From positions 1 through 64,000 of IMG/VR virus record IMGVR_UViG_3300020233_000057: 64,000 nt of DNA. One strand, 5' to 3'. The position numbers were made by a program, and so were the translations under genes. Below, in pieces: positions 3,150 to 13,737 of this stretch. The first letter of the stretch is position 1. Each line of letters opens with the position of its first letter. Source of the DNA: a virus. The notes below the pieces were generated by a model, which saw only the letters and a program-made list of their open reading frames with translations, searched no databases and was not told the origin of the DNA.

Positions 3150-3397
3150 TGAGAGCCAGAACAGTCGGGGCGTTCATCGCAGGGCTAGCAGCGGTTCCTG
3201 TACTAGCAGTGGTGGCGGCGACTATCGATGATCTAGTCAGCTTCGGTGCAGCATCATTACGTGTAAAACCACGGCCTGTACGGTGCCCCTTCCCTTCTTG
3301 TGAAGGTCGCACCCCTATGTGTTCATCAGACGCCCCGTGTTCCACCATGATGTCTGTTTGCGGGTCCGCAGTCAGGCAAGTGTATGAAACCCCATGA
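3149..3397 (+). CDS. Small membrane-anchored Cys-rich protein
   Basis: 82 residues. Residues 6-30 (VGAFIAGLAAVPVLAVVAATI) form one clear membrane span or signal anchor, followed by a Cys-rich tail (CPFPSC, CSSDAPC). Coupled by ATGA to the gene upstream. Function unknown. Confidence 0.55.
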   Translation: MRARTVGAFIAGLAAVPVLAVVAATIDDLVSFGAASLRVKPRPVRCPFPSCEGRTPMCSSDAPCSTMMSVCGSAVRQVYETP

Positions 3398-4356: not shown

Positions 4357-7263
4357 TCAGCGAAGGTTGATAGTGACATTCCCAAGACTGTCTCTTGCAG
4401 AACTCCTGACTCGTATACGTCGTTTGATCAGCGTGTCATTCAGGTCCGCCCACGACCAGTATGAGTTATGGACAGCTACCCCTCCCGCTAAATATTCATG
4501 TTCTCCTGCAACCTCAAGGTTCCATACATCTTTTCTTTGACTAACAGGTTGTACAGTTAGGACAAGCGACGCGACAGTGTCGAGCATCTTCCCGTTCCCA
4601 GGTTGCGGGTGGCCTGTTGCTGCCTGAGGCCCGGTTGTCCTGACGTGCAGCCCTTGTGTCATGGCCAGAGGCATCCACGCACATTCTTCGGTCCATACGG
4701 GATGATGCCAGGTCCCTTCTATACTCATCCCGTTTGCTGTAGCAAGGACCCAGGTTTGGGCATGCCGCTGTGTCACCCCTACATCTGCAACTCGGTCGAG
4801 CCCCTGGCGTGTCCAAATGGGGTCGCCACGTGATATGTTTTGCAGGTGCACCCAGCCGTCAGGGGTGGCTACAGGGGTCTCTCCTATGAGGCATGCGTCG
4901 ACTAAGTCATATGGTTTGACCCTCGGGAAGCGTTTAAGTGCCTGTTCTAGAACATGATGGGTTCCCTCTAGGTGCACGAATTTGCCGCGTTCGTAGTCAA
5001 CTAGCATTCGTTCTGCCCTAGCGATTTTGGACCCGTGACCTGTTGATGCCTTTGCATGTTTGAATCTAGGGGCGCTGCCATCGAGTAGCCCCTCTTTCCT
5101 CATATTTTCGCATGCCTGGTGATACACCACTTCCCAAGTATCTCCACCTTGGTCTGTTTCTACTCCGACAGTGTCTGCCCCCCACCGTAACGCTACCTTT
5201 AGAGCCTTCTCTATGGCTGTTAGGGGCGTGGCACGGGTTTCCCATGAGTACAGGCGGTAGAACCGCCCGTTAGTACCTAAGGCGTCGCATTGGATACCCA
5301 TAGAGTCACTTCGATCGGTTGTGGTGACAGCGGGGTCAACCCAAACGGTTACGCGCTTGAACACAGGTAGTTCTGCGTGGGTGCAGCGAGCGAAGGCAAT
5401 GTGGTTGAAGATGTCTCCCTCAGGGGGCTGTGTCTGATGTTGGAACTCTGCCAGGAATGCTGTAAGCCCAATGTCGTTCATGACTTGTTGACATGACCCT
5501 ACAGACATAGAATTTTCCCATGATGCAGTCCCCCCCACTATTACGAATTTCCCGTCACGTTCTTCATATTTCATGCCGAATATGGCGGGGATGGGGCCAG
5601 ATATGATGCGGTCCATCAGGAAGTCTGCCCGTCCGTCAACCAACCTCGCGAAAATTGAATCTTCGTGTACTAGGTTTTGTATCATCAGGACTGCACAGTC
5701 TTGGGAGCCCGCAGGGAGAAGCTTGCGTGTAATGGTCTTTATCTTCTTATGTGTCGATAAGTCAGAATCTAGTTCGGAGTCGAGATCGTCGAATACCATG
5801 AAGTCTGGTCGCTGGTTCTCTAGCTTGACTCCACGCGCAGCAGAGTCAAGTCCCATAGCGTCGATTGTGAACCCTGTAGAAGCGCGGATACGGTTGCGTC
5901 TCCAACCTTTGGCTGATCCGAATTTGCTTACTAGCCTTTGCCCGAGTTCAGGGTAGGCGATGTTGACCAAATCTGATTCTAAGAGCCCTGCGATGTTCGT
6001 GATATGGTCGTCTGCCTGCTCCTGCGTTTCGCAGTTGTGTGAGCGCCCAAATGCAGTTATGTAGTCCTGTGTTGATGTCTGGATTGGGACAAACACACGG
6101 TTCTGTACCGCTTCCCTAGAGCACAATTTGCTCCACAAGTAGCCATCGCGGATCAAAACATTGAGGTTAGCAAAGTCACTTTCGTCTCCGGATGGGGAAC
6201 TCTTAGATACGGTGTCTTGCCGGAAGCGTAGAACACAGGAAGATTGTTCCCTGTCTACGTTTACGCAGACAGCGTCTTGGCAGGTGCTGCTGCCCGTTTC
6301 TATCGTGGCGGCAACCCCCAATCGTGCAAGGATGCGCCGTGCGGTCAGCAAAGTGGTGGCGGGGACGTTTGTAATCAGGGTTTCGTGGTCTGTCACCTGC
6401 CCTGTGGCGTGTACCAGCCCGTCAATGAGCTGTGTCAGGTGCTGCGCAGGTAGTTTCTCGACCCACGGGGGTGGGACTCTATAGCCCCCTTCATCCAGAT
6501 GCCAGGCCGCTAAGAACTCGTCAAGCACCTTAGACTGCACCTGTGCTTTAGCACCCCTGTCGAATGCCCCGTTTCCCCACCATGACCCTATATGCCACCA
6601 CAAGCCAGGGGATGTAAGCCAGTTGGGGCAAGTCTCAACAGATGTATCGATGGGGAGACCTATCCATGTATGCGAATCAAGGTCCTTAGCTTCCACCCAC
6701 CTAGGGTCCGCGAACCTGGCCTGCCCCGCGTTTCCGTATTGCACGTCCTGTTCCGTGATGCGCCGCGTCCAATAACGATGCTCTGCCGTCACCACCTCTG
6801 TAAACGGAAGACCCCACAGCATCACCTCGTAGCCGTCGCAAAAGCGTTCCTGGGCCGTGGGGTGTTCTTCTACCGCTATCCATGAGCCACCATCAGGGTC
6901 TAGAATCGGTGTGCCCTTCTCGTGGCAAACATACAGACCATAATTGCGCTTGCGTCTACACCCTAAAGCCAGCACTGCCATCTCTGCGCTGCTGCTCTTG
7001 CCATGCCCACGTGACCATATCGCTATGAACGGTTTCGGACGTTCACCTGGCTCAACCCCCCATAGCCACTCCCAGAAATCTTTATGGTGCTTAGCAAATT
7101 CTTTGTTGGCTGCCTTCGGGACCATTACCTGTAGCCAAGGTTCCCACTGATCCAATTCGATAGCAGTGAACATCAGGTATTGCTGATACGCCTCCCGTTC
7201 TTCTGCCGTAGCATGCAAGAGAAGCTCAGGGTCAATTACTACCGGTCCTTCTGTGTCAGGCAT
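4357..7263 (-). CDS. terL: Terminase large subunit with two inteins
   Basis: 968 residues from ATG 7263, which overlaps the terminase small subunit stop; an upstream ATG at 7329 gives 990. Packaging motor ATPase and nuclease. Walker A is SRGHGKS (about residues 84-90), Walker B FMVFDD (488-493). The RNase H-type nuclease shows WVDPA (D643), GVETDQGG (E702/D704) and YDLVDA (D786/D789). Intein 1 (residues 113-410) sits between GLYV and CETQEQADDH; intein 2 (791-933) sits directly after the last catalytic aspartates, before SYWSW. Without them the extein is about 527 residues, a normal size. Activity should need both splicing events. Confidence 0.95.
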   Translation of the reverse strand: MPDTEGPVVIDPELLLHATAEEREAYQQYLMFTAIELDQWEPWLQVMVPKAANKEFAKHHKDFWEWLWGVEPGERPKPFIAIWSRGHGKSSSAEMAVLALGCRRKRNYGLYVCHEKGTPILDPDGGSWIAVEEHPTAQERFCDGYEVMLWGLPFTEVVTAEHRYWTRRITEQDVQYGNAGQARFADPRWVEAKDLDSHTWIGLPIDTSVETCPNWLTSPGLWWHIGSWWGNGAFDRGAKAQVQSKVLDEFLAAWHLDEGGYRVPPPWVEKLPAQHLTQLIDGLVHATGQVTDHETLITNVPATTLLTARRILARLGVAATIETGSSTCQDAVCVNVDREQSSCVLRFRQDTVSKSSPSGDESDFANLNVLIRDGYLWSKLCSREAVQNRVFVPIQTSTQDYITAFGRSHNCETQEQADDHITNIAGLLESDLVNIAYPELGQRLVSKFGSAKGWRRNRIRASTGFTIDAMGLDSAARGVKLENQRPDFMVFDDLDSELDSDLSTHKKIKTITRKLLPAGSQDCAVLMIQNLVHEDSIFARLVDGRADFLMDRIISGPIPAIFGMKYEERDGKFVIVGGTASWENSMSVGSCQQVMNDIGLTAFLAEFQHQTQPPEGDIFNHIAFARCTHAELPVFKRVTVWVDPAVTTTDRSDSMGIQCDALGTNGRFYRLYSWETRATPLTAIEKALKVALRWGADTVGVETDQGGDTWEVVYHQACENMRKEGLLDGSAPRFKHAKASTGHGSKIARAERMLVDYERGKFVHLEGTHHVLEQALKRFPRVKPYDLVDACLIGETPVATPDGWVHLQNISRGDPIWTRQGLDRVADVGVTQRHAQTWVLATANGMSIEGTWHHPVWTEECAWMPLAMTQGLHVRTTGPQAATGHPQPGNGKMLDTVASLVLTVQPVSQRKDVWNLEVAGEHEYLAGGVAVHNSYWSWADLNDTLIKRRIRVRSSARDSLGNVTINLR
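4465..4893 (-). other. Intein 2 of the terminase (mini-intein)
   Basis: 143 residues. Begins CLIGETPVATPDG (block A), has a block-B-like GTWHHPVW, block F (VWNLEVAGEHEYLAGG) and ends VAVHN before Ser+1. No endonuclease domain, so it cannot home by itself. It splits the nuclease active site at DLVDA/S. Confidence 0.9.
6034..6927 (-). other. Intein 1 of the terminase
   Basis: 298 residues from Cys (CHEKGTPILDPDG) to GRSHN with Cys+1. Block B looks like TAEHRYW, block F like VFVPIQTSTQDYITAF. The middle holds segments resembling a worn LAGLIDADG endonuclease (FLAAWHLDEGG and LIDGLVHATG), with one acidic residue missing in the second, so cutting activity is doubtful. Confidence 0.85.
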
Positions 7264-7825
7264 CCCCAACGTCCCTTGATGTATCTGAATCCCCTTGTTC
7301 CGCAGTGCCTGGTTCAACGACTTCCGCATCTACAATGTCTTGCTCTGCCCCTTCGATAGCGCGGGCATGTAAGCGGCGCGCCAATGCAGCCATAGCTCCT
7401 GGGTCCAATTCGATACCTGACACCACCTTTATGGGGCCTCCGTCTCCCCCCGTCACCTCAAGTTGTGTCTTATCTTTCTTGGCCCAGCGGTCAGGCATCG
7501 ATCTCTCCAGGAACCAAGCAGCAGCTTGCCACTGGCCTTCGTTGGCCGCCTTCTGAATCTTAGCGACTGACGCCACCTCTGCATCCGCCCGAGCCTTCTC
7601 CATCGCGTCCCTGAAGTCACGGTATTCTTGAGGGGCATCGGGTTCATCTGCTTTGTGAATCCACCTACGCATAGTCCCATAGTTGATTCCTGCGAACGCA
7701 CACGCAGTCTGTAGGTAGTTTCCCCCCCTTACTGCTTGCAGCAGCCGTTCAGCGCGTTCCTCGCTGAACTTAGAAGGCGCCCCGGGAGCCTTGAAATCTG
7801 GTAGTTTGTCTGGCACTTTTCCCAT
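7256..7825 (-). CDS. terS: Terminase small subunit
   Basis: 189 residues. An N-terminal helix-turn-helix (ERAERLLQAVRGGNYLQTACAFAGINYGTMRRWI) should read the packaging site; GQWQAAAWFLERSMPDRW is the hallmark stretch of this terminase small-subunit type. The C-terminus is a flexible acidic tail. Overlaps the large subunit start by 8 bases, so the two are probably translationally coupled. Confidence 0.9.
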   Translation of the reverse strand: MGKVPDKLPDFKAPGAPSKFSEERAERLLQAVRGGNYLQTACAFAGINYGTMRRWIHKADEPDAPQEYRDFRDAMEKARADAEVASVAKIQKAANEGQWQAAAWFLERSMPDRWAKKDKTQLEVTGGDGGPIKVVSGIELDPGAMAALARRLHARAIEGAEQDIVDAEVVEPGTAEQGDSDTSRDVGDA

Positions 7826-8279: not shown

Positions 8280-8341
8280 GGGGCACCTCCGTTAGATGGC
8301 TCAGTGGATTGTATCACCAGGAACCCTGTTCACAAGGATGC

Positions 8342-11300
8342 CTAACTACGCTTGTAGCTGCCGCTGCGGTGTGCGTTGCGGCGCGCTAACGCAGCATCGA
8401 TAGCCTCAGAAACTTGACCTTTCGTCCATTCCTCACCAACAGGAATATGGAGCTTCTTAGCGAACAACAGTTGTTTGTCAGACGGAGGGCTCTTCCGCCA
8501 AGGGGCATCACGACTCACCAATGCTGAATGGCCGTGCTTCCGTACATAGTCTTCACCTACCCCCTGCGCCATTTCAAGGTCAACGTTTGACATTAGCGGG
8601 CGTTTCAGGTATTCGTCATTACCATCTTTCTCACGTACACATACACGCCACAGGCTTAAAGGAGCGCTGCTATCAGCACCATCAGCACCATCGCTGTCAC
8701 CGCTATCCACGCGGCGACTGCTGTCATCTTGTCGCTGCAACTCTTCGAGTATGACTGTCGTATTCGTATCCCCCCCAATGGAGATTGTGTATCCCCGCAC
8801 CCCTCGCGCTGAGACATACCCTGTCCACGCGAGTGGGGAGTCAACGACTTTACGAAACAGCTCGACCTCTTGGATTTTGAGTTCCCCAAGCTTTACTTGC
8901 CGTTCCACCTGCTCCTGGATCGCTTCCGCGACTGTCATCTCTTTGTGCTCGAACTCATCACCTCGCTCAATTCCAAAGAGACTAGGGATAGTGACCAGGC
9001 TGTGTTCTTCAGAAGCCCCTACAACATCTAGGACTAAACAGTTATCTTTCCCAGGGTGGCGACGTGTCCCCCGTCCTATACAGTTACCAAGGATGGCGAC
9101 CCTGCCGTTACGACGTGTTACAAGAGTTCCTGTTTCTGTCTCAACGCACCAGACACGTTCACCTTGGTTTGTAGGCGAGTGAACGAACATGGGGCGGTCA
9201 TTGACAGATCCCCCACCCACCGTCACCGTCTGCTGATCCCTAACATGCACAATAAGGTTGCCGCCATGATCTTCAGTGACAGCAGCACGATATCCTCTGC
9301 GGACACACAAAGATTGGAGTCGATCTGCCAGTACCCGATTGTGCCTTAACGACAGGTGATAACTGCTACGCGTGGACTTCTGCCTATCCTGGTCTGTCCC
9401 TTTACCGCGGTGAATGGCATCAAGCAGAATCCCCATCTGTTCACGGGTTATGGCCTCAGAAACAGAGGAGAAAGATTCGTTAAAAACAGGATCTACTGCC
9501 GCATTTGACATCCCCCAACCTATGGAACGGATCGCATTATTAGACAAGGGGACACCCTCTGTATCCTGCAAGCCCGATACAGGAAGTTTCCACGGATCTG
9601 GGATAACAGCGGCATCCTGTGCTTCTATGAGCTGCCACTCACCCCACTCATGGGGGTGTCCCCCCGTGAGGGAACAGACCATGCGGTGTCCGCCTGTAAC
9701 CCGGATCGATTGATGGGGGGACTCAATTTCATACATGGCCTCATCTGCACCAAGTTCGCGGTCGACACGCGACAGGATGGGACTCCACCCCATCGCCCCC
9801 GATTCGACATCGAAAGTTGCGACAACATCATCATCCATAATCTTGCCGCGTGAACGCCACCCAGAAGAAGTAAGGATCTCGGTTGCATCATCAAGACACT
9901 GTGTGTAAAGAGCACGACTCCTAGTAGGTCTTGCTAAAACGATACAGTCAACAGACGGCTCATCAAACCCTTCACACAGAACTTGACAGTTAACCATCAC
10001 CATTATGTCCCCACTGGTGAAATCTTTCAACATCTGGCGTCGTTCATCAATAGGTGTTTCCCCAGACACCATTGCGGCAGAGACCCCGCGGTTACGTAGA
10101 GCAATAGACACCGCATCTGCAACAGATACCGTCGGGGTGAACACAATAGTTTTACGGTCAGGAGCAAACCGCACATAGGCGTCAGCTATCTGGTTCGGGG
10201 CGTCAGCATCCTCTAAAGCCCTACCAACGTCACCCTCTGCATAGTCTCCACGGCTTATCCTGACCTTCGATAGGTCAAGCCCGGACATTGTGATACGGCG
10301 CCCTTTAATGTCAGACAGGAAGCCCCTACGGATACCCCACAGTATGTCATAGTTGAACACGACTTCATCGAAAACTTCGTCAAGTCCCTTCCCGTCACCG
10401 CGATCAGGGGTTGCTGTAACCCCCAAGATCAGAGGATCGCTGTCTGCAAAGTATTCGATCGTACTCGTGTAGCTATCTGCTGTGGCGTGGTGACAGTTAT
10501 GTACGACATACCCGTTAGCCGTATAGGTGTGGGTGTCCTCTACTTCTATGTTGTAGACAAAACCATCTGGGCACAGCCCTCCGTATTGTCCATCACTCTC
10601 TGGTTCGAGAACCTCAACACGGTCCACCCTTGGGCCAACAAGAACTTGTCCTTGCGGCGATCCGCTTCCTTCCTCCGAATAACCGCATGGCTTGAACCGT
10701 CCACCTCTACAGCGATCCCCAGTTCGGGATGAGATATGTCGATCTTGTAGTGTGTCGGAAGCCCCCCTTTGGTCGGAGGCTGACCCGTGGGAACGATATA
10801 TTCTGCTGTCCACCCAGGGCCAAGTGCCAAGAGAAGTTTCTTCTGAGGTTCGGTCATCCCTTGGCCGTTCCCACCCCTCCATCGTGGCTGATGTCCAATC
10901 CGACGCAACGTCTCCGCCATTTTCTGGCGTGCTTCTTTCTTTGCCATCGGATTGTGCTCCCGCATACGCTTCGACGCATACTTGCGGTTCGTGGCGCTCA
11001 TAGTTTTCGAGGAAAGGCGACTCGTCCATATGCCGCGACACTTGTCGGAGCAATACGCCCGACCCTTGGAGTTCCAAAGACTCCGACGGCTTCGCTGATC
11101 CCTCGGGATCGAGACCATGACCCCACACTCCGTGCACGTTGCCTTGATGGGTTTGGATCGAGGTTTTCGTTTCTGACCACGCTGAGACTGTGCCGCGAGA
11201 CGATAGCGGCACTTCTTCGAACATGTCTTTCGTGTCCCCACTGTTCCCTGCCCGCAGATTGTACATGTCATGAACGCTAAGGTTAGCACCTTCACATGAT

Positions 11301-12844
11301 GCGGCGGAAAGCCATCCGTCATTTGTCCACATAGGATGCTCGGGGGTGCACACGAGGTGATCCCCATTAGCCATGTGAAGGCGCACCAAAGATGAGGGCC
11401 GTTTGGACATTGTACGAACGATGCGACGAGGAACCATCACCCCCGTGCGTTCATCGAAACTTGAAACGACATCACCTTCGACAAGCGTTTCTATTGGGTG
11501 ACCGTCGACGAGTGTACCGGCAGGGAAACACTCATCTACGATTATTAGTTTGAACCAATCACGTGGGATCTGTTCACGGCGCGATTGCCTCGACAAAGTT
11601 TGGATCGACCCTACTATGATCTGATGCTCGATCTCATTCCGCTTCGCCTTGATTACCCCTACATCCGCTTCGGGCCACATCATGAGGAGTTTGTCTACCG
11701 CTTGTGAAATCAGCTCGTCTCTATGGGCTAGAATTAAGGTACGGACCCCTTTACGTTGTGCCAGGGAGTTAAACACAATAGTGTTATGTGTTACGACGTG
11801 TCCTTCTGATATGAATAGGCCGTCTTCTGCGGAGACCTTGATACACACTGTTTCGCGGGGGGACACAGCGTCTATAGACACGATCTTGCGTACAGTGTGG
11901 GGACGACTTGTGTCTCCGAATACCAGTTTGTGTATGCTCACGTTAGTTCCCGGAGCATCACTTGTGATTGTGGTAATAATCCCCAACGACCCCGCAAGTT
12001 CTTTTACGTCATTCGCAAGATGGGCAGACGATGTGAAACATTTGATAGTCCCGTTACCGTCTTGTTTGGTGTCATTTAGTAGCCCTGCAAGGAGTAGACG
12101 GCGGGTTTCTATTGGCGCACACAAGTACGGGGTTGGGATGAACCTGTCTAAAGGTCCCAACCCCCATGTTCCCAAGTAGGACAGGGCATCGTTTATGTTG
12201 CTACGGGCAGTTGTCCCCTGCTGTGCCCTATAGGGTCTGTCAGCAGTCCATAGCGGGCCAGGGCATACATCTGTCGGATGTTGGACGATAGTCCCGTCCG
12301 CTATGACTGCGCCAAGGGTGTGGGCATCCACAGGAAGCTCGGGTTGAGCGTCGAAAGTGATAGGGGCAACAACAGGGAGTCGCCAGCGGGGAAACCCCGT
12401 AGAGGACACAACCCCAATTTTGTGTAGACGCTGTGTCTCTAGCGTGTCCCATGGGGCGTCTCGCTTAACGCCATCATCTGTAGCTACTGTCCACAGGTGG
12501 TCTGCATCAACAACAATGGATACCCCATCGTCTGTCGTCACCACAAAACATGGTTGGATTCCTCTAGGGAATACGCCATCTACTTTAGTTGGGTATCCGT
12601 CTGCCCCCACTACGAAGTCCCCAACTTCTAGTTCTTGGACAGGACGCCATGATCCGTCAGATTTTAGTACAGTTGTTCCTACTGCAAGCCCTTTGCCGAG
12701 GCCTGTCGCTGCGACCCCAAGTTGCTTTCGGACGCCGCGTTGCTCTGCCTCCAGGATGCAATCGATGGCATCCTGTTGGTAGTCACGGAGTTGGATTATC
12801 TGGGTGGGAGGGCTGTCAGCAGCATCGAATAGGGTTGTCTGCAT
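8342..12844 (-). CDS. Superfamily 2 DNA helicase with three inteins
   Basis: 1500 residues, of which about 580 are extein. The extein is a phage DEAD/DEAH-type helicase: RDYQQDAI tip, motif I ATGLGK/T, TLILAHRDEL, motif II VDE/CH, LGVTATP (III), KTIVFTP (IV), LCEGFDEP (V) and motif VI Q/CIGRGTRRHP; the slashes mark where inteins A, B and C interrupt. The end (SPPSDKQLLFAKKL and after) is a small helical domain often found on such helicases. Probable role in replication or recombination. No activity is expected until all three inteins are removed. Intein B also carries a nested endonuclease gene. Confidence 0.95.
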   Translation of the reverse strand: MQTTLFDAADSPPTQIIQLRDYQQDAIDCILEAEQRGVRKQLGVAATGLGKGLAVGTTVLKSDGSWRPVQELEVGDFVVGADGYPTKVDGVFPRGIQPCFVVTTDDGVSIVVDADHLWTVATDDGVKRDAPWDTLETQRLHKIGVVSSTGFPRWRLPVVAPITFDAQPELPVDAHTLGAVIADGTIVQHPTDVCPGPLWTADRPYRAQQGTTARSNINDALSYLGTWGLGPLDRFIPTPYLCAPIETRRLLLAGLLNDTKQDGNGTIKCFTSSAHLANDVKELAGSLGIITTITSDAPGTNVSIHKLVFGDTSRPHTVRKIVSIDAVSPRETVCIKVSAEDGLFISEGHVVTHNTIVFNSLAQRKGVRTLILAHRDELISQAVDKLLMMWPEADVGVIKAKRNEIEHQIIVGSIQTLSRQSRREQIPRDWFKLIIVDECFPAGTLVDGHPIETLVEGDVVSSFDERTGVMVPRRIVRTMSKRPSSLVRLHMANGDHLVCTPEHPMWTNDGWLSAASCEGANLSVHDMYNLRAGNSGDTKDMFEEVPLSSRGTVSAWSETKTSIQTHQGNVHGVWGHGLDPEGSAKPSESLELQGSGVLLRQVSRHMDESPFLENYERHEPQVCVEAYAGAQSDGKERSTPENGGDVASDWTSATMEGWERPRDDRTSEETSLGTWPWVDSRIYRSHGSASDQRGASDTLQDRHISSRTGDRCRGGRFKPCGYSEEGSGSPQGQVLVGPRVDRVEVLEPESDGQYGGLCPDGFVYNIEVEDTHTYTANGYVVHNCHHATADSYTSTIEYFADSDPLILGVTATPDRGDGKGLDEVFDEVVFNYDILWGIRRGFLSDIKGRRITMSGLDLSKVRISRGDYAEGDVGRALEDADAPNQIADAYVRFAPDRKTIVFTPTVSVADAVSIALRNRGVSAAMVSGETPIDERRQMLKDFTSGDIMVMVNCQVLCEGFDEPSVDCIVLARPTRSRALYTQCLDDATEILTSSGWRSRGKIMDDDVVATFDVESGAMGWSPILSRVDRELGADEAMYEIESPHQSIRVTGGHRMVCSLTGGHPHEWGEWQLIEAQDAAVIPDPWKLPVSGLQDTEGVPLSNNAIRSIGWGMSNAAVDPVFNESFSSVSEAITREQMGILLDAIHRGKGTDQDRQKSTRSSYHLSLRHNRVLADRLQSLCVRRGYRAAVTEDHGGNLIVHVRDQQTVTVGGGSVNDRPMFVHSPTNQGERVWCVETETGTLVTRRNGRVAILGNCIGRGTRRHPGKDNCLVLDVVGASEEHSLVTIPSLFGIERGDEFEHKEMTVAEAIQEQVERQVKLGELKIQEVELFRKVVDSPLAWTGYVSARGVRGYTISIGGDTNTTVILEELQRQDDSSRRVDSGDSDGADGADSSAPLSLWRVCVREKDGNDEYLKRPLMSNVDLEMAQGVGEDYVRKHGHSALVSRDAPWRKSPPSDKQLLFAKKLHIPVGEEWTKGQVSEAIDAALARRNAHRSGSYKRS
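9083..9898 (-). other. Intein C of the helicase (motif VI)
   Basis: 272 residues from Cys983 (CLDDATEILTSSGW) to Asn1254 with Cys+1 (CIGRGTRR). The penultimate residue is Gly (ILGN) instead of the usual His. The middle has a degraded LAGLIDADG-like part (QMGILLDAIHRGKGT and a following LADRLQSLCVRRGY). Confidence 0.85.
10496..11530 (-). other. Intein B of the helicase (motif II)
   Basis: 345 residues from Cys439 (CFPAGTLVDGHPIETLVEGD) to VVHN783 with Cys+1, splitting VDE and CH of motif II. Block B is CTPEHPMW, block F VYNIEVEDTHTYTANGY. Residues about 525-766 are low-complexity and Ser/Gly/Glu-rich with no endonuclease motif in this frame; the same DNA encodes an endonuclease in another frame. 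Confidence 0.9.
10546..11271 (-). CDS. EDxHD (Vsr-like) homing endonuclease nested out of frame in intein B
   Basis: 241 residues from ATG 11271; the open frame extends to 11367. Same strand as the helicase but another frame. Order: two zinc fingers (CTICG...CSKKC and CTECG...CSDKC), a basic helical linker (NPMAKKEARQKMAETLRR), then a Vsr/DUF559-like nuclease with KIDISHPELGIAVEVDG, SSH and RRKDKFLLAQGW, giving the E-D-x-H-D set. Its stop lies inside block F of the intein. The SD is weak. Family knowledge: EDxHD enzymes such as I-Bth0305I act as homing endonucleases. It may drive spread of the intein, whose own frame lacks a nuclease. Confidence 0.85.
   Translation of the reverse strand: MTCTICGQGTVGTRKTCSKKCRYRLAAQSQRGQKRKPRSKPIKATCTECGVMVSIPRDQRSRRSLWNSKGRAYCSDKCRGIWTSRLSSKTMSATNRKYASKRMREHNPMAKKEARQKMAETLRRIGHQPRWRGGNGQGMTEPQKKLLLALGPGWTAEYIVPTGQPPTKGGLPTHYKIDISHPELGIAVEVDGSSHAVIRRKEADRRKDKFLLAQGWTVLRFSNQRVMDNTEGCAQMVLSTT
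11783..12691 (-). other. Intein A of the helicase, class 3 type (motif I)
   Basis: 303 residues starting at a non-nucleophilic Gly52 (GLAVGTTVL) straight after ATGLGK and ending VVTHN354 before Thr+1. It carries the class 3 W-C-T set: Trp in block B (DADHLW), Cys in block F (ETVCIKV) and Thr in block G (VVTHN). The middle holds LLLAGLLNDTKQDGNGTI, a recognisable LAGLIDADG-like endonuclease motif. Confidence 0.85.
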
Positions 12845-12885
12845 AGGGTGGGTAGGCTAACAGGTCGGGATGACACATGCCCTTG

Positions 12886-13737
12886 TCAAGAGTGCCATGT
12901 TTCTGGACCATCCGTCTCGAATGGTCTTATCGATTCGGGGGTCAGGCCAATGGACTCTAGATAGTCGCACGTCACAGAAAACGGGTCTGTATCGTCACAT
13001 GCTGTACGCCAAGCATCGTATTCGTCTTTCATGACTTTGGCCTTCAGATCCCCAAACCTGAAAAGAACAAACTCCGGGACAGGGGGGGCAGGTTCGTTGA
13101 TTACTGTGGGTTGGATCTCATGCAGCATATCTGCGTCAGGGGTCAGGGGGGGTGCTCCCGTTGCTGCTTCCGCTTCCACTTCCGCTTTTGTCGAAGGGTG
13201 CAGGTTAGGTTGCCCACTGTCTAGAGACGCCTCCTGCTGATTTGTTACAGGAAACAGGCGGTCTATAGCTGCCCGTGTAGCTTCACGCTCGCTACCGTCC
13301 ACATCTACAGGTATGTCAATATCTGTGACAGTCGCGTCTAGCAGCCCATCCACGTCATCTTTCTCATATCCTGTGCCTTGGAGAAGCGATGCGTCATCGT
13401 CTACCAACTCCTGAAGCAAGTTGGCTAACATTGCGTCGTTGTAGCTGCCTAAGTCTGCGATACGATTAGATGCTAGGACGATACGTTTCGCTTCGGTGTC
13501 CCCAACGTCTACATATACAACGTCTATTTGTTCCCAACCCAACAGTTTAGCAGCAGCGTAAGTGTGGTTGCCTTGCAATATGTACCCTGTTGAGCGTTGC
13601 ACCACAAGCGGAGAGAACTGCTTGTTCGCTTCCAGCGAGGCGCGCAAAGCGCTGATATTCCCGATGCGCGGGTTGTCTGGGTACGACCCAATTTCTTCAA
13701 CAGCAACCCGTTCTACTCTGTTTAGCAGAGATTCCAT
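12886..13737 (-). CDS. ParB-like nuclease domain protein
   Basis: 283 residues from ATG 13737 behind GAGG; a TTG at 13746 overlaps the methylase stop. Residues 10-110 hold the ParB/sulfiredoxin fold: YPDNPRIGN, QFSPLVVQ, LQGNHTYAAAKLLG, ASNRIADLGSYND. The rest is a Pro/Glu-rich linker and a C-terminal helical domain (FRFGDLKAKVMKDEYDAW). Third gene of the ParB-methylase-ParB block. ParB-like proteins next to phage methylases are thought to bind or process DNA during modification. Confidence 0.85.
   Translation of the reverse strand: MESLLNRVERVAVEEIGSYPDNPRIGNISALRASLEANKQFSPLVVQRSTGYILQGNHTYAAAKLLGWEQIDVVYVDVGDTEAKRIVLASNRIADLGSYNDAMLANLLQELVDDDASLLQGTGYEKDDVDGLLDATVTDIDIPVDVDGSEREATRAAIDRLFPVTNQQEASLDSGQPNLHPSTKAEVEAEAATGAPPLTPDADMLHEIQPTVINEPAPPVPEFVLFRFGDLKAKVMKDEYDAWRTACDDTDPFSVTCDYLESIGLTPESIRPFETDGPETWHS

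Follow-up and report, generated by a model that had tools for sequence, protein, structure and literature searches.

Fractured genes, reportedly described by Dassa and colleagues, are said to be split inteins with a free-standing EDxHD endonuclease between the two halves. In the more familiar arrangements, homing endonucleases are translated free from introns or are fused with an intein (reviewed in PMC3943268). The closest precedent found for the locus described herein is the ShiLan domain, which comprises an out-of-frame HNH endonuclease and which its authors consider to be neither an intein nor an intron (PMC11855218). For the frequent occurrence of overlapping reading frames in actinophages, the same article cites a study by Gosselin, Arsenault, and Gogarten on Actinobacteriophage inteins with non-canonical architecture (bioRxiv 2025.01.02.630785) and an article by Gorbalenya (1998, Non-canonical inteins). 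Our literature search, which did not cover these two works, found no out-of-frame endonuclease inside an intein; both of them may overlap with the present analysis.

The locus compared here with these systems lies in a phage helicase gene. We are confident that its intein B is a mobile splicing element and that the gene for its homing endonuclease (HEN) is distinct from the intein frame and overlaps it in +1. The evidence is entirely computational. It establishes the two proteins and their conservation, the stop avoidance, the selection acting on either frame, the dual-coded 3' end, the start-site signals of the family, and the presence/absence polymorphism, while splicing, cleavage of the empty site, and translation of the HEN in the window phage are inferred. 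The window, i.e., the whole stretch of 64,000 nucleotides that was analysed, is part of a 113,068-bp virus record. Five apparent inteins are found in two neighbouring genes of the window, two in the large terminase (4357-7329) and three in the helicase (8342-12844). The helicase and the parts of intein B are the following:

8342..12844, minus strand: SF2 (DEAD/DEAH-like) phage helicase ORF of 1500 aa with inteins A, B, and C (Pfam ResIII and Helicase_C; PHROG DNA helicase)
10496..11530, minus strand: intein B, 345 aa, at motif II between DE and CHH (TIGR01443 intein C-term, E=8.7e-6)
11267..11530, minus strand: N-terminal splicing half of intein B, Hint residues 1-88, with Cys1 and the TxxH block B
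10646..11248, minus strand: intein-frame linker, residues ~95-295, predicted to be disordered; the +1 frame there is the endonuclease
10496..10633, minus strand: C-terminal splicing half of intein B, with blocks F and G and HN^C (conservation, TIGR01443, structure model); block F contains the stop codon of the nested ORF

Read on the minus strand from Cys1 at 11530 to Asn345 at 10496, intein B is a class-1 Hint intein as judged by its nucleophile, its TxxH and HN motifs, and its predicted fold, whereas splicing activity itself is inferred. Its class-1 splicing residues comprise C1, TPEH in block B, YNIEVEDTHTY in block F, and VVHN^C. Across 49 relatives, C1, H65, H344, and N345 are invariant and T62 is conserved. 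In the structure model, the Hint fold is confident for the N-terminal 88 residues (pLDDT ~97 over most of them) and the C-terminal 45 residues (pLDDT ~97), and Foldseek places it with the Mtu RecA mini-intein (E 1.9e-5) and other Hint folds. Pfam and profile searches found no nuclease family in the intein's own frame, and intein B does not qualify as a canonical homing intein. The original prediction, which had described clean splicing blocks and no in-frame nuclease, was right on both counts; its label of a low-complexity middle is better replaced by disordered, the pLDDT being <50 for most of residues 98-284.

The same strand, read in the +1 frame relative to the intein, encodes the putative endonuclease:

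10546..11271, minus strand: nested EDxHD/Vsr-like HEN ORF, 241 aa plus TAG
11209..11265, minus strand: zinc finger 1 of the HEN (C3, C6, C17, C21), recognized from the sequence; weak treble-clef match to DUF2116 (E=0.007); missing in some relatives
11038..11136, minus strand: zinc finger 2 of the HEN (C46, C49, C74, C78); C46 and C49 invariant, C74 and C78 at >=90% in 53 relatives
10882..11004, minus strand: helical DNA-contact region (TNRKYASKRM..NPM...KM), conserved in A3 and putatively NUMOD-like
10603..10752, minus strand: EDxHD/PD-(D/E)xK catalytic domain (D178, E189, D191, H195, D204, K207, W216, R220), assigned by conservation

The HEN runs from an ATG at 11271 to a TAG at 10546-10548, within the codons for Asn327-Ile328-Glu329 of intein block F. 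Its ORF stays open further upstream, giving 273 aa from an ATG at 11367; this extension is an out-of-frame reading of the DNA for intein block B, and the CP-T1 homologue has a stop in it. Since the first 32 residues of the 273-aa version are such block-B DNA, the start was set at 11271; a related-locus search with the 273-aa protein as single query, these residues included, returned no matches. The HEN matches Pfam DUF559 (E=1.2e-11), and a profile built from 53 HEN relatives matches PDB 3hrl (7.9e-11) and 3r3p, the EDxHD homing endonuclease I-Bth0305I (0.0033). The AlphaFold model has a mean pLDDT of 92.5, and its top Foldseek hits are again 3hrl and 3r3p, both with probability 1.00 and modest E-values. 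Among the 53 relatives, D178, H195, D204, K207, W216, and R220 are invariant and E189 and D191 are present in >=90%; every catalytic and zinc residue is intact in the HEN of the window. On the strength of its Vsr-like/PD-(D/E)xK domain, as recognized by sequence and model, the HEN is assigned to the EDxHD homing endonucleases, while cleavage of the empty allele is inferred. The two overlapping frames, the nested stop within block F, and an EDxHD/Vsr-like nuclease had all been predicted, and each was borne out, the last far beyond chance expectation and also by the profile search that had been suggested as a check.

A tblastn search with the nested protein found 40 phage records (E down to 2e-52), with matches in helicase or matching unnamed genes. 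Most plasmid matches were set aside as ordinary DUF559 proteins, as were L050-L074 from the genome scan. The frame check among these records was limited to the eight that were fetched (CP-T1, phi673, K391, 1.194, 159E43, MR14, 104E43, 1.088); in all of them the HEN lies inside one continuous helicase CDS, always in +1. Scans of IMG/VR and GTDB extended the set to 113 loci with a full HEN, forming 85 clusters at 70% identity. All 113 have the HEN in the identical +1 frame and an intein frame that is open throughout; the longest open stretch in the third frame has a median of 54 aa. Neither outcome that the original prediction had named as fatal to dual coding, i.e., a nested frame not conserved in relatives or an intein frame broken in most of them, was thus encountered. 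In the intein of L038, each of the three forward frames runs for >200 codons without a stop through the HEN region.

The hosts of full-HEN loci are phages and members of many bacterial phyla, and the genomes with a nested HEN include Elusimicrobia, Ktedonobacter, Thermodesulfobacteriota, Verrucomicrobia, Ruminococcus, Riflebacteria, Bacteroides, and Dependentiae. Insertions occur at the DE box of SF2 helicases and, beyond these, in SNF2-like and DnaX-like genes; the genes were named by motif. A full nested HEN was present in 71 of 80 loci retrieved by the intein N-block alone, a figure that is free of endonuclease-search bias because of this mode of retrieval. Counts over relatives are not phylogenetically independent, although the clusters share <70% identity. 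From sequence comparison alone, the out-of-frame endonuclease layout of intein B recurs in >100 further inteins of viruses and bacteria, and this layout appears to be old, being found across many phyla in helicase, SNF2, and DnaX inteins that make up 85 clusters. An entry of the endonuclease out of frame in this phage, as originally proposed, is for this reason not upheld.

An unrelated HNH_3 endonuclease with zinc fingers (Pfam HNH_3, 4.1e-13) is nested in the +2 frame of large-terminase inteins. The cases are those of Tetrasphaera phage TJE1 (terL, L165), Acinetobacter phage Highwayman (L166), a Rhodobacteraceae phage, and L139, with L167 among the loci of this kind. Because this nuclease is unrelated and occupies the +2 frame, out-of-frame nesting arose at least twice. 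In Vibrio phage 1.245 (L168:1-2949), the terminase intein is split, with the CDS of the N-part ending at 2097 and that of the C-part at 2632-2949, and an ORF related to the HNH endonuclease (1959-2693) overlaps both parts. This arrangement is plausibly a step toward fractured genes.

The start sites bear on how the HEN would be expressed. HEN starts were taken as the best-pairing candidates, and control ATGs were picked by the same rule. The starts occupy a narrow position, at a median of 86 codons after Cys1, and are ATG in 69 of 77 loci. Shine-Dalgarno pairing has a mean of -5.3 kcal/mol at HEN starts versus -2.55 kcal/mol at control ATGs (p 9e-12), with aaaggaggtatataaATG (L041) and aaggagggcgaccATG (L144) as example sites. 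The window's own HEN start has only a weak Shine-Dalgarno-like site, and translation of the HEN in this phage is therefore less certain than in its relatives; initiation there is inferred from the start-site signals of the family. The weak site would also suit programmed +1 frameshifting from the intein frame, by which the HEN would be produced without internal initiation, as an N-intein-endonuclease fusion, and so would the invariably +1 relative frame of the family. Such a mechanism is disfavoured by the start-site signals, namely the narrow placement, the predominance of ATG, and the strong Shine-Dalgarno enrichment, and by the nested-frame stops that lie <=5 codons before the HEN start in 31 of 77 loci and leave almost no room to shift. 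The HNH class, in the +2 frame, does not fit it either. We consider frameshifting improbable and retain internal initiation.

Selection on the two frames was assessed at stop-risk junctions, defined as HEN codons starting with AA, AG, or GA, where a preceding T creates a stop in the intein frame. The expected count of T was derived from T use at safe junctions in the same genes. Across the family, none of the 3295 stop-risk junctions at which T was possible carries it, versus 923 expected (log10 P -528); in the window alone, the count is 0 of 37 versus 11.9 expected. In free-standing relatives without an intein, which served as controls, T occurs at 29 of 56 (L018), 31 of 62 (L020), and 9 of 47 (L026) such junctions. 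Since no such junction in the family carries T while free-standing relatives use it, selection holds the intein frame open. Were the insert an intron at the RNA level (or a hidden intron) whose endonuclease is of the usual intron type, this open frame would be incidental. Intron endonucleases such as I-Bth0305I do belong to the same nuclease family, but an intron has no need of an intein frame without a single stop at 3295 junctions, and the Hint blocks are intact with C1, TxxH, and HN^C. Moreover, there is no Rfam match within 8300-12900 at E<0.1, on which ground the RNA intron was rejected; it is scarcely conceivable.

For an intein that carries an overlapping gene, the constraint on each frame could be compared over the same DNA. 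In close pairs, the HEN frame gave dN 0.005 and dS 0.261, 0.017 and 0.186, and 0.107 and 1.012, versus dN 0.060 and dS 0.036, 0.053 and 0.021, and 0.275 and 0.151 for the intein frame of the same pairs. Purifying selection acts on the HEN frame in close pairs but not on the middle of the intein frame, where dN >= dS in most pairs. The nested ORF might still be a decayed relic or an open frame that arose by chance, which would make the intein, in effect, a mini-intein of large size. Some family members have indeed lost their HEN or carry a decayed one (L084, L095, L114, L136, L149, L048, and L169, a Rhodovastum plasmid), and the deletion derivatives L095, L114, L136, and L149 retain the Hint frame. 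Against a relic stand the purifying selection in relatives, the intact catalytic and zinc residues of the window HEN, and its confident structure model, so that a functional endonuclease gene is preferred and a relic is judged very unlikely.

At the 3' end of the HEN gene, one short segment appears to serve both proteins:

10603..10629, minus strand: dual-coded strand, HEN GWTVLRFSN (215-223) and intein RVDRVEVLE (301-309); both frames conserved and predicted as beta strands, with synonymous third bases biased toward those that the intein requires

Over HEN residues 215-240, synonymous third bases are skewed to what the intein requires (p down to 1e-38); at S239, the third base is T in 97% (p 1e-38). 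In the middle of the HEN, only 2 of 87 positions are skewed in this way, both at codons where T means a stop, and both are explicable by stop avoidance. This difference confines true dual coding to the 3' end: two-protein coding is limited to HEN residues ~215-241 and Hint residues ~301-327, and the intein frame in the middle is merely stop-free and predicted to be disordered. The original prediction of dual coding, together with the dN/dS measurement proposed for it, thus holds in that the intein frame is selected to remain open, but not in the sense of two functional proteins throughout the overlap.

Intein-free close relatives support mobility of the element, as far as genome comparison can indicate it. 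The helicases of Vibrio phages CP-T1 and vB_VchM-138 are 96% identical and differ by the precise presence or absence of the intein, as is also seen between 159E43 and 142E35-1 and between K391 and 234P10. Another relative (L155) is 82% identical to the helicase segment of the window, lacks intein B, and has only helicase intein A of the window's inteins. Several other forms were encountered. A 150-aa mini-intein occupies the same DE^CHH site in Vibrio phages K389, PS65A.1, and K453 (L162, L163, L164), and PS65A.1 has a second intein at Walker A. In the plasmid of Rhodovastum atsumiense (L169), an intein in an SNF2-like gene has a nested HEN without its catalytic motif, the intein frame still being open. 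In L018:3358-5626 and L020:4160-6291, the HEN is a free-standing gene immediately upstream of an intein-free helicase, with which it overlaps. In L020, CGGA replaces a codon exactly at the intein site and shifts the helicase frame, which is either a repair scar or an assembly error. In a HEN tree with a weak backbone and unknown root, these two free-standing HENs group beside the nested L011, and they may be escapees rather than ancestors. Mantel tests between endonuclease, Hint, and extein distances gave r 0.43-0.48 throughout and did not separate co-inheritance from independent invasion, and the signal for conversion tracts around the insertion was too noisy for a claim.

In the proposed mechanism, the helicase mRNA would be read twice. 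Ribosomes in the helicase frame would traverse the whole insert, for which reason this frame would have to remain open; the Hint halves would then fold, excise the 345-aa intein, and rejoin helicase motif II as DE-CHH, splicing being inferred. Other ribosomes would initiate inside the intein, just past block B, and release a free 241-aa EDxHD endonuclease, a step that is inferred in the window phage. The free HEN would bind and cut the intein-free helicase allele at the conserved motif II (cleavage is inferred, and no site was determined), and repair of the cut allele would copy the intein with the HEN inside. The middle of the insert would be HEN-coding DNA that yields, when read in the intein frame, a disordered loop that is tolerated, and only the 3' end would hold functional sequence for both proteins.

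The textbook rule that the endonuclease of an intein is a fused domain is broken by a whole family with putative free proteins from an overlapping frame, and many inteins annotated as endonuclease-less may be mobile. With its many overlapping genes, the family also provides a large natural collection for measuring the constraint on each frame. A broader hypothesis, which we put forward only tentatively and regard as rather doubtful, is that out-of-frame inteins form a class that is both large and ancient and that arose two or more times (EDxHD in +1 and HNH in +2), with the endonuclease locked in by the overlap. Indels in the HEN would also shift the frame of a spliced essential host protein, and the common 3' strand would hinder clean deletion, so that the step of the homing cycle at which the endonuclease is lost would be slowed. 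Split inteins, as in fractured genes, would arise where the intein frame breaks. Such a scheme offers a route from ordinary to split inteins, and with the family it can be tested whether an endonuclease is lost more slowly when it overlaps, a question about the homing cycle that has long been puzzling.

Like canonical LAGLIDADG/HNH inteins, intein B has a Hint domain, a conserved ATPase motif as its site, and an endonuclease between blocks B and F; unlike in these inteins, the endonuclease would be a free protein from another frame and not a fused domain. The catalytic domain of the HEN resembles that of I-Bth0305I (PDB 3r3p), with a TM score of 0.69 on target in addition to the profile and Foldseek matches given above, but I-Bth0305I is intron-encoded and its DNA-binding region is unlike that of the HEN. 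As is reported for fractured genes (Dassa et al. 2009), an EDxHD-type endonuclease is tied to an intein without being fused to it. In fractured genes, the intein is split over two genes, whereas in the intein B family it forms one unbroken frame; Vibrio phage 1.245 has the split state for a relative of the HNH endonuclease. The ShiLan domain (PMC11855218) likewise has a zinc-finger endonuclease, encoded out of frame within an insertion through which the host frame stays open, and a patchy, homing-like distribution. There, no segment is removed by splicing, no ribosome site was observed, and the nuclease is an HNH enzyme. In contrast, the intein B family has intact splicing blocks and Shine-Dalgarno sites, and intein B itself has an EDxHD nuclease with a 3' end common to both proteins.
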